Positions 5,494 to 11,723 of a DNA stretch of 64,000 bases are shown here, piece after piece. Every line of letters begins with the position of its first letter. Within the stretch, counting starts at the first letter, position 1. The stretch comes from Gemmatimonadota bacterium (lineage in GTDB: Bacteria; Gemmatimonadota; Gemmatimonadetes; Gemmatimonadales; Gemmatimonadaceae), in assembly GCA_040388625.1 (NCBI GenBank), contig JAZKBK010000005.1, positions 347,478 to 411,477 of the forward strand, in the 5' to 3' direction. A program made the position numbers and the translations under genes. The notes beneath the pieces were generated by a model. That model was not told the DNA's origin and ran no database searches. It worked only from the letters and a program-made list of their open reading frames with translations.

Positions 5494-7491
5494 TCACGGC
5501 TTTCTTCGCGCCTTCACTTCGCTCGCCGTAATCTTCCTGCTGTTGTTTCCCCACGATGATCGCTCGTGATTGATGATGTCTGCGATCTGTGTGTTGTTCA
5601 ATAGACCGCTGAATGGGGGCATCGCGCCTGGATAAACTGTACCGCCGATGTTCTGCCCCTGAAGTCCGTGCAACACCACGTCGATTTGCTTGGCCGGATC
5701 GGCGTCCAGCACGACGAGATTTCCCTTGAGCGGCGGGTATGCACCCGGTATCCCCATGCCGGTAGTCTGATGGCACGCGGAGCACGTGGTTGCGAAAGCC
5801 GCGGCGCCTCGCGCTGGATCGTAACTATACGGGCCGGGCGGCTCTGGAGGCGCCGCGCTCGCGACGGCCGTCGTTGTGTCGAGTGCCGGCGTCGCGGCGA
5901 CGGGAGCCGCGACTCGCGACGAGCCAACCGGGCGAACCTCGATGACGCCGAGCGCGCCGACCATCAAGTGCGCCATGTCGTGATCGACGAAGGCGTACTT
6001 GCCAGGCTTGGGAATCACCAAATCGAATACGGCCCCCGCACCGGGCCCGACGGTGTACGTGGAGACGCCGCTCAGCGCATGCGACGCATCCCCATCGGGA
6101 TAGACCTTGTCGAACATGGAACCGATGACGTGAAACGAAGTCCACAGGTTCGGGCCGCCGTCGATGAGGTAGATGCGAATGCGATCGCCCGCGATGGCGA
6201 CGAGTGGACGGTCACGGTACTGGAACGCGACGCCGTTGAAGACCACTTCGTCGGGGCGCTCGGCCAGCATCCGGTCGTAGTTCGCGGTCATGAGATGTCC
6301 GGATGCCTGCTGCGTGTACCACTCGCTCTGCAGGATCACGAAACTTTCGTTCGCAGGTGGAAGCGGGGTCGCCGGATCCACGATCAGTGCACCGTACATT
6401 CCGTTCCCGACGTGCAACAGAATGGGCTGCGTCTCGCAGTGGTAGATGAACGCGCCAGCCACGTTCGCAACAAATGAAAACTTGAGCGACTTGTTCGGCT
6501 CGATGTCGATGTAATTGAGATTCGGTTCTGTCTCGGCGGCATGAAAGTCGATGGAATGCTTCATGTTGCCGTGATTGGTGAGCGTCACGTTTACCGTCTG
6601 TCCCTGGCGCACGTGAATGATCGGACCCGGGACGGTGCCGTTGTACGTCCACGCCTGATACTCGACTCCGTTCGCGATGGTAACCGATTCGTCCGTGACG
6701 ACAAGATGCAGATCGACGCTGTTGCCGGTGCCGAGAAGCGGCGGCAGGTGTGCATCGCGAGCCTTCGCGATCGGCGCCTGAGAAGCGAGCGAGAGGGGCG
6801 ACACCGCGGCAGCTGCTGCGCCAGGCGATGGCGACCTCACGTTGAACGCGCTGTGCAGGCCGCCGATCAGCATCACGAGCAGAGCGAGAACGCCGAGCAT
6901 GGCAAAGATCTGGATGCGCCATGGAAGACGCTCGGGTTCGGACGCGAGCGTATCCGCCGTGCCCCACTCCGCGAACCGCCGCCAGCGCGGCCACCGATTC
7001 TCGATGTGATAGTCCAGACTGTAAGGGCTGCGCCCCCCGCGGCTGTTGATGGCGATGAGTGCGACGAAGATCAGCACGTAACTGATCGCAGTGCCCATGT
7101 TCGTCGCACCGACCGTGTACGGACCGCCGAACCCCTCAGCGGTGCTCCAGATCAGTAGACTGAACAGGCCGCCCACGATGTAGAGGATCTTGCGCGCGAA
7201 GCCCGTGAGCAACGCCACGGCGATCGCGGTTTCAATGATGCGCGTGAGCCATGTGAAGAGAAGGGCGTGCGGCGTGACCAGCGCGATCCACATCGAGAAC
7301 CAGCCTGCCAGCCAGGCGGGCTGCCCCTGTGCGGCGTTGTGCAGATAGCCTACATAGTGAACCGCGAATTCCGGTGACCACGTCAGCGCCGCGCCAACCG
7401 CCCATACGACACCGAAGGCTACACGCAGCCCTGCGGCTGCAACAGCCGGCCAGGTCCTGTGCGTGTCTACGTCAAGTTGCGTTTGTGACAT
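5494..7491 (-). CDS. nirK: Copper nitrite reductase with N-terminal membrane module and C-terminal cytochrome c
   Basis: 665-residue fusion in three parts. Residues 1-215 hold five or six membrane helices resembling a DoxX/TQO-type domain. Residues about 250-525 are two cupredoxin domains of the NirK type: type 1 copper ligands H312, C352, H360, M365; type 2 ligands H317, H351, H504; catalytic Asp315 and His454 are both kept. A Pro/Ala linker leads to a class I cytochrome c with CSACH at 570-574 and a likely axial Met at 624 (GAMPPF). It should reduce nitrite to NO outside the membrane, taking electrons through its own heme and perhaps directly from the quinone side. The start has GGAG 11 bases upstream and a TGTGA-N6-TCACA palindrome over the ATG. 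Confidence 0.85.
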   Translation of the reverse strand: MSQTQLDVDTHRTWPAVAAAGLRVAFGVVWAVGAALTWSPEFAVHYVGYLHNAAQGQPAWLAGWFSMWIALVTPHALLFTWLTRIIETAIAVALLTGFARKILYIVGGLFSLLIWSTAEGFGGPYTVGATNMGTAISYVLIFVALIAINSRGGRSPYSLDYHIENRWPRWRRFAEWGTADTLASEPERLPWRIQIFAMLGVLALLVMLIGGLHSAFNVRSPSPGAAAAAVSPLSLASQAPIAKARDAHLPPLLGTGNSVDLHLVVTDESVTIANGVEYQAWTYNGTVPGPIIHVRQGQTVNVTLTNHGNMKHSIDFHAAETEPNLNYIDIEPNKSLKFSFVANVAGAFIYHCETQPILLHVGNGMYGALIVDPATPLPPANESFVILQSEWYTQQASGHLMTANYDRMLAERPDEVVFNGVAFQYRDRPLVAIAGDRIRIYLIDGGPNLWTSFHVIGSMFDKVYPDGDASHALSGVSTYTVGPGAGAVFDLVIPKPGKYAFVDHDMAHLMVGALGVIEVRPVGSSRVAAPVAATPALDTTTAVASAAPPEPPGPYSYDPARGAAAFATTCSACHQTTGMGIPGAYPPLKGNLVVLDADPAKQIDVVLHGLQGQNIGGTVYPGAMPPFSGLLNNTQIADIINHERSSWGNNSRKITASEVKARRKP

Positions 7492-10632: not shown

Positions 10633-10802
10633 GCAATCTGCAGTATGAACGCGCGAATTTGCAACGTGCATTGGCGGGATGCGGCCTGCACGCATTGATA
10701 TTCGTGTGCACCCAACGCTCCTGCCTGGGGTATGAACGAAGTCGATACCGACGGCTCCCGGAAACCCCATTTGTGCGCTCACCCTGTTACAGGTGCAGTC
10801 TG

Positions 10803-11723
10803 ATGCAAATACGTGAGATAATGAGCACCGACGTAGTTACGATCGAACCTCGCGAAGCGGCGAGTGCTGCGTGGGCGCGCATGCGGCGTCGCGGCATTCG
10901 GCATCTCGTGGTGGTGGACGAAGGGCGCGTTGTCGGCGTTCTCTCGGAACGCGACCTCGGCGGGCGATCGGGGGCCGCAAAGCGCAGGAATCGCATCGTG
11001 CGCGAGCTCATGACGCCGCGCGTGGAGACGATGGATTCGGACGCGAGTGCAGACTCTGCCGCGGAGCTCATGCGGGAGCGCCTGATCGGGTCGCTGCCTG
11101 TCATGGACGGCGATGACCTGGTTGGCATAGTCACCGCTACTGATGTGTTCGAAGCGGTCGACAATGGAACGCGCGGTCCGCTCAGTGGCGCCGAGCGACA
11201 GATGTTGCGCGCGCCAAGCAGCAGCAAGCGGCTGGGCGGGAGTCCGATCGTGCGCAAGCGAATCGCGGAATCGAGCGACGTCCGGCGCGAGCGACCGAAA
11301 ATATCGAATCGGGACAAGCGAGAGCCGCTCACGGATCAACTCCCGAAACGGGAAAAGCGCGGGGCCGGCCGAACCGCCGGGCCGCAGGTGCCGGCAAACA
11401 TCCGTGTGTCTGGAGTAGATCTGGATGACGAGGATATGGATTACATCCGTCAGCGGCTCGGTTTGAAACTCGGCAAGTTCGCTAGTTCGATAGAGCGCGT
11501 GACGGTGCGTGTGAAGGACATCAACGGCGATCGCGGCGGGATCGACAAGGTCTGCAACATCAAGGTTGTGGTGAGCGGACTCCCGAGCGTGGTGGTGGAA
11601 GGGCGATCCGACTCGACCAGGGTGGCCGTCAATTCCGCTCTGGCCGCGATCGAGAGTGCCGTGCGCCGGGTTGTGCAGCGGAGGCGGATGACCCCTCTCA
11701 GGACCGGTGCGGGAAGGGAGTAG
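10803..11723 (+). CDS. CBS-pair protein fused to a ribosome hibernation factor-like domain
   Basis: 306 residues. Residues 1-120 form two CBS motifs (IMSTDVVTIEP ... VVGVLSERDL and LMTPRVETMDS ... LVGIVTATDVFE), which normally bind adenine nucleotides. A basic, low-complexity linker of about 85 residues follows. Residues about 208-295 (IRVSGVDLDDEDMDYIRQRL ... VTVRVKDINGDRGGIDKVCN ... VVVEGRSDSTRVAVNSALAAI) resemble the N-terminal HPF/RaiA (S30AE) domain that binds the 30S decoding region. An energy-sensing domain joined to a ribosome-inactivation domain suggests ribosome silencing under nucleotide control. That function is inferred. The start is the first Met in the frame that begins the CBS motif. 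Confidence 0.8.
   Translation: MQIREIMSTDVVTIEPREAASAAWARMRRRGIRHLVVVDEGRVVGVLSERDLGGRSGAAKRRNRIVRELMTPRVETMDSDASADSAAELMRERLIGSLPVMDGDDLVGIVTATDVFEAVDNGTRGPLSGAERQMLRAPSSSKRLGGSPIVRKRIAESSDVRRERPKISNRDKREPLTDQLPKREKRGAGRTAGPQVPANIRVSGVDLDDEDMDYIRQRLGLKLGKFASSIERVTVRVKDINGDRGGIDKVCNIKVVVSGLPSVVVEGRSDSTRVAVNSALAAIESAVRRVVQRRRMTPLRTGAGRE

Follow-up and report, generated by a model that had tools for sequence, protein, structure and literature searches.

A DoxX-like membrane domain fused to a NirK-type core and a haem c domain in Gemmatimonadota and other bacteria

In the textbook picture NirK is soluble in the periplasm and receives its electrons from small carriers that contain copper or haem. 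The stretch of Gemmatimonadota DNA analysed here (64,000 nucleotides, hereafter the window) carries a gene in which a NirK core appears to share its chain with membrane helices and a cytochrome c. This raises two questions: whether the three modules belong to a single protein, and what a membrane domain would contribute to a nitrite reductase.

Reading frame, modules and residues

The gene occupies positions 5494 to 7491 on the minus strand, starts with ATG and encodes 665 aa with zero internal stops; codon-position GC is unbroken along the whole ORF. Two congeneric genomes have orthologues, 97% and 89% identical, in which this frame is likewise unbroken. A frameshift or an assembly join is ruled out by these two orthologues together with the other complete fusions described below, and the initial annotation was right to place membrane helices, NirK core and cytochrome c on one chain. 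From the N terminus (all coordinates on the minus strand), a DoxX-like four-helix membrane domain spans residues 14-152 (7036-7452), as delimited by AlphaFold, alignments and conservation. It is followed by a loop of residues 153-190 (6922-7035), predicted to be cytoplasmic, with conserved Y157-S158, D160 and W170 and six Lys/Arg. A fifth transmembrane helix, residues 191-216 (6844-6921), found by hydropathy and AlphaFold, leads into the periplasmic NirK core, residues 256-520 (5932-6726), and a haem c domain recognised by Pfam, residues 556-660 (5512-5826), completes the predicted topology. Pfam places a multicopper-oxidase domain at residues 265-374 and cytochrome c at 560-642. The proposed tethering of the enzyme to the membrane by its N-terminal region is supported.

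Alignment to Ralstonia pickettii NiR identified the type 1 copper ligands H312, C352, H360 and M365, the type 2 copper ligands H317, H351 and H504, and the catalytic residues D315 and H454. All nine are kept in 60 of 60 complete fusions, which bears out the earlier remark that the copper ligands and both catalytic residues are intact. The C-terminal class I haem c has the ligands C570-x-x-C573-H574 and axial M624, kept in 48 of the 48 complete fusions that have haem c. In a phmmer search residues 259-663 aligned end to end with the R. pickettii haem-Cu nitrite reductase (E about 1e-72), and the best PDB matches of the core are characterised nitrite reductases. The core scored 189.3 bits (E 1.1e-55) against the NCBIfam equivalog TIGR02376, missing its cut-off of 296.3 bits, and because of this we class it as NirK-type by its residues and not as the curated equivalog. 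All four fusions scored, this one among them (189-201 bits), and the host's non-fused NirK (192 bits) are below the cut-off, which four annotated nirK passed with 344-412 bits. Helen and colleagues relied on the same residues when accepting sequences as NirK, and report that laccases and ascorbate oxidases do not conserve six of them (PMC4770552). From the sequence we infer nitrite reduction by the fusion protein.

The N-terminal region had been described as five or six helices of DoxX/TQO type. AlphaFold, run on a 54-sequence alignment including the window protein (mean pLDDT 80.6, pTM 0.57; the relative placement of modules is not reliable), gave five, not six: 14-37, 59-96, 100-116 and 129-152 make up the four-helix domain, and 191-216 is the one extra. 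A model of the domain alone returned the same four helices at mean pLDDT 75.4. As to family, a distant relationship to DoxX is weakly supported and visible only through relatives, but the window's own domain has no Pfam match: Pfam found nothing in the first 225 residues, so that the DoxX/DoxD gathering scores are missed, and NCBIfam found nothing above cut-off. DoxX is matched by 12 of 53 family members at E <= 0.1 (best E 2.1e-5) and DoxD by two of 53; one distant relative of the membrane domain has a DoxD match at E 3e-7. In structural alignment the best matches were TMEM35A/NACHO (Z 9.5, rmsd 3.6, 126 aligned) and, second, vitamin K-dependent carboxylase (Z 8.8, rmsd 3.1, 124 aligned), both of them weak, as a Z below 13 may, according to the tool's warning, reflect just a common helical arrangement. 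Both proteins probably belong to a DoxX-like superfamily. Foldseek with the membrane domain returned nothing at E <= 0.001, the whole-chain fold search returned solely NirK structures among the 50 matches listed, and the structure-match lists named no solved DoxX/DoxD protein. The family signature W-[ST]-TAEGFGGPY-x-x-G reads W115-STAEGFGGPY-x-x-G128 in the window protein and is predicted to lie on the periplasmic side. In the 60-sequence alignment the membrane domain has no His or Cys conserved at >=80% and no conserved Met. A haem b or copper site was rejected for want of such His or Cys, and the domain thus probably holds neither haem nor copper.

Eight ORFs around the fusion gene in the window were scanned and include no denitrification gene, and no FNR-type box was found upstream of the fusion gene. 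FNR-type matches with <=2 mismatches number 21 in the whole window against 13.45 expected (two of 100 shuffles reach 21), and the one nearest to the fusion gene, 7046-7059, lies inside it. Elsewhere in the window, the gene at 10659-11723 (plus strand) combines CBS domains and a ribosome-hibernation-like S30AE domain on the same protein. The host genome has NosZ (909 bits, above the curated cut-off) and one NrfD-family protein; the cytochrome b model PF13631 has no match in it. At 161-188 kb of host contig C5 (L007, L118, L124) lie NosZ, a protein of the haem-copper oxidase family and the host's second NirK, which is non-fused, 339 aa long, near a Crp-like regulator and 165 kb from the fusion.

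Distribution and origin of the fusion

When 84,980 species were scanned, each represented by a single genome, 182 relatives of the membrane domain were confirmed. The best 80 of these 182 comprise 59 complete fusions, 13 free-standing domains, seven loci cut by a contig end (three inside or after the NirK part, four before it) and one broken locus; counts taken from the best 80 of 182 loci are lower bounds. The domain order had been presented as unusual, and rarity is not borne out, given at least 59 complete fusions besides that of the window, 47 with haem c and 12 without. Of these 59, L037 and L038 come from the two congeners. Counting the window protein, 48 of 60 complete fusions have haem c and 12 do not. 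The 13 free-standing domains, the seven contig-end loci and the broken L097 were left out of the 60-sequence alignment; L097:650-2169 is a Chloroflexi fusion copy with its NirK part broken into two frames. Most fusions are from Rhodanobacter, Castellaniella, Comamonas and Verrucomicrobia, with further hosts in Frateuria, Paraburkholderia, strain HdN1 and Chloroflexi, a design found in many soil and water bacteria. Within Gemmatimonadota the architecture is indeed unusual, the domain being present in five of 395 sampled genomes (three congeneric ones, host included, at full strength and two weak), but across bacteria it is not: the fusion is rare in Gemmatimonadota and widespread elsewhere.

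In the Rhodanobacter family nine of 117 genomes have the full fusion, at 63-69% identity, and all other matches are at <=42%. The fusion is the sole NirK homologue (E <= 1e-40) in five of these nine genomes. For strain HdN1 a role as sole nitrite reductase was rejected on account of three strong cytochrome d1 matches there. Fusions were located via the membrane domain, a route by which a fusion-clade NirK lacking the domain would escape; no such protein was seen in the 117 Rhodanobacter-family genomes. Two congeners hold short extra copies of the haem c tail, perhaps duplication remnants: G001:C15:206102-206257 (65% identity to residues 614-664) and G002:C26:179039-179137 (79% identity to residues 633-665).

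A tree built from 60 fused and 24 non-fused NirK cores (84 altogether) places all fused cores in a single clade (support 100/99), and the 48 haem c-bearing fusions form a single clade nested within it (100/99). The simplest reading would be a single fusion event, with haem c gained or lost once. The window protein and its two congeners are sister to a Rhodanobacter genome bin (100/99), and the group enclosing them also has Rhodanobacter glycinis and a Beijerinckiaceae bin; these neighbours are partly metagenome bins, whose taxon labels may be wrong. Nesting of the window copy among proteobacterial cores points to horizontal transfer, most simply read as transfer from Proteobacteria into this Gemmatimonadota genus.

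Neighbour genes were called by simple ORF rules, and false ORFs are included. At the four fusion loci scanned (L071, L089, L096, L099), two fusions have an NnrS gene directly upstream and a third has a globin gene in that position, which fits NO chemistry. Free-standing relatives occur in actinobacterial and other metagenome-assembled genomes, the more distant ones on plasmids. At two such loci, P-type metal ATPases with N-terminal cupredoxin domains (L110:1087-3975 and L111:332-3451) lie beside the DoxX-like genes, the pair in L110 being almost contiguous. A further free-standing relative adjoins a ferredoxin-like subunit and an NrfD-family membrane subunit (L105:6210-8611), with a second weak relative of 349 aa downstream.

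Possible roles of the membrane domain

Conservation sets the membrane domain apart from a simple anchor. Median identity to 12 two-module fusions is 0.60 for the membrane domain, 0.60 for the NirK core and 0.31 for helix 5, and the invariant columns number 36 of 139, 60 of 265 and 1 of 26, respectively. The predicted periplasmic loop 114-130 reaches an identity of 0.94, with nine of 17 positions invariant. Divergence of the membrane domain tracks that of the core (r 0.81 over 1,770 pairs, not independent because of their shared ancestry), and the 12 of 60 complete fusions without haem c still retain the membrane domain. All 40 sampled fusions have R84 and N131, where 13 of 13 free-standing relatives have Ala and Asp, respectively, a pattern expected for adaptation to a fused partner; E87 is invariant in the 13 free-standing relatives and lost in six of the 40 fusions. 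Because the membrane domain is conserved like the catalytic core and helix 5 is not, a passive anchor is unlikely, and the domain is probably more than an anchor, with an active role suggested by its conservation.

We tentatively favour a membrane-integral copper nitrite reductase in which the membrane domain is active and most likely oxidises quinol, a reading whose chance of being correct we put at somewhat below even. The four-helix domain and helix 5 would hold the NirK core and haem c on the periplasmic face of the inner membrane; quinol would be oxidised at the DoxX-like domain, electrons would pass via the periplasmic W-STAEGFGGPY loop to type 1 copper or haem c, and nitrite would be converted to NO at type 2 copper. 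Quinol as the electron donor is conjectured: a quinol site is compatible with the lack of conserved metal ligands, with a loop rich in aromatic residues on the predicted periplasmic side and with the distant fold match, and the absence of His or Cys at >=80% is as expected for a ligand site without haem or copper. Vitamin K-dependent carboxylase, the second structural match, oxidises a quinol. The NnrS and globin neighbours and the host's gene content (NosZ, one NrfD-family protein, no PF13631 match) also count for this reading; the weakness of the structural matches, the loss of E87 in six of 40 fusions, the copper-gene neighbours of free-standing relatives, the core's score below the TIGR02376 cut-off and the lack of denitrification genes among the eight ORFs scanned count against it. 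The initial annotation's suggestion of quinol feeding without soluble carriers gains indirect support from the core-like conservation of the domain and from its lack of an obvious metal or haem site. The stronger proposal of a self-contained quinol:nitrite oxidoreductase, with electrons passing straight from the DoxX-like domain to the NirK copper or haem, is possible but on balance doubtful. If true, NO-forming nitrite respiration would run without bc1, ACIII or soluble carriers, and the DoxX-like domain would be an undescribed class of cofactor-free quinol modules. A widespread, horizontally transferred form with a strongly conserved membrane domain would alter the assignment of electrons to nitrite reduction in acidic and metal-rich soils, the setting in which Rhodanobacter denitrifies, along with the energy yield ascribed to that step. 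The fusion also gives a concrete handle on the function of DoxX-like domains.

The quinol reading is ranked first with low confidence, and its main rival is a role in copper handling, in which the membrane domain would load or protect the NirK copper and electrons would arrive via ACIII or bc1, cytochrome c and the haem c domain. Metal P-type ATPases lie within three genes of three of the 13 free-standing relatives (L107, HMA; L110 and L111, with cupredoxin domains) and a cupredoxin gene adjoins a fourth (L113), so that four of 13 are near metal ATPase or cupredoxin genes rather than clear quinone enzymes, although these are small counts with no control set. Two metal-sensitive repressors are found among 59 further neighbouring ORFs, and the NCBIfam model HvfX, a Cu-binding RiPP maturation family, matches weakly in 11 of 53 members. 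The membrane domain, however, lacks conserved His, Cys or Met, and most NirK proteins from the same searches have no such domain; we regard copper handling as unlikely, if worth keeping in view.

A passive anchor, whose only task is to keep the enzyme membrane-bound and close to its donors, seems to us a rather poor prospect. Helix 5 alone would be enough for anchoring and AniA-type NirK proteins are membrane-attached, both of which count for it, but the domain matches the catalytic core in conservation, over half of its periplasmic loop is invariant (nine of 17 positions), and R84 and N131 differ between fusions and free-standing relatives. It is improbable that the core, though NirK-like and copper-binding, mainly does something else and does not have nitrite as its natural substrate. 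The TIGR02376 scores, with four fusions and the host's non-fused NirK below the cut-off and four annotated nirK above it, could be taken that way; against this stand the ligands and both catalytic residues kept in 60 of 60 fusions, the characterised nitrite reductases as best PDB matches, the NnrS and globin neighbours, and the five of nine fusion-bearing Rhodanobacter-family genomes with no other NirK homologue. A TQO-like transfer of electrons from a reduced sulfur compound to NirK, suggested by the distant DoxD similarity and by one plasmid relative beside rhodanese and DsrE genes, is very improbable, as the chain has no DoxA-like part by Pfam and the membrane domain no conserved Cys.

Comparison with known systems

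A search of open-access literature by title and abstract, with subscription papers and supplements outside its scope, returned no report of a DoxX-like NirK fusion. The words transmembrane, membrane and Rhodanobacter are all absent from the main text of a survey of 6,422 NirK sequences (PMC10999283). A Rhodanobacter genome paper notes that one R. thiooxydans strain has an additional nirK copy, and the passages on it give no domain description (PMC8809349).

The closest known enzymes are the three-domain haem c-Cu nitrite reductases (RpNiR, PDB 3ziy; Pseudoalteromonas haloplanktis, 2zoo), which likewise carry haem c C-terminal to a NirK core and are both the best PDB match (residues 259-663) and the best fold match of the window protein. 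RpNiR-type enzymes, as portrayed in part of PMC13324648, consist of core and haem c only, without a membrane domain. The window linker 521-554 contains no Tyr that might correspond to the RpNiR gatekeeper Tyr323, described in the same part of that source, though the linker aligns poorly; Y555, adjoining the cytochrome, is present in 48 of 48 haem c fusions. Propionibacterium acnes NirK (about 900 aa, including a transmembrane domain of 400 aa at the N terminus and a cupredoxin) likewise has an N-terminal transmembrane region on the NirK chain, but by its description in part of PMC4770552 it is larger, has an extra N-terminal cupredoxin and comes with no mention of haem c. The Chloroflexi C1-NirK and C1-C2-NirS fusions similarly bear extra electron-transfer modules on a nitrite reductase; these are cytochrome and cupredoxin modules, and the word DoxX does not appear in the main text (PMC8756737).

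For the membrane domain itself, DoxX/DoxD (the small subunit of TQO) shares a four-helix membrane domain and distant similarity, whereas the window domain is below every Pfam and NCBIfam cut-off and is fused to NirK. Thiosulfate:quinone oxidoreductase is made of DoxD and DoxA parts, and the window chain has no DoxA match in Pfam. Vitamin K-dependent gamma-carboxylase (9l21_A, 9bum_A) has a similar helical arrangement (9l21_A, Z 8.8 over 124 residues, below the level that the tool trusts for helical bundles) at 14% identity, and the likeness concerns arrangement. Taken with its distribution, the fusion is a real, widespread and seemingly undescribed variant of the tethered-domain copper nitrite reductases.
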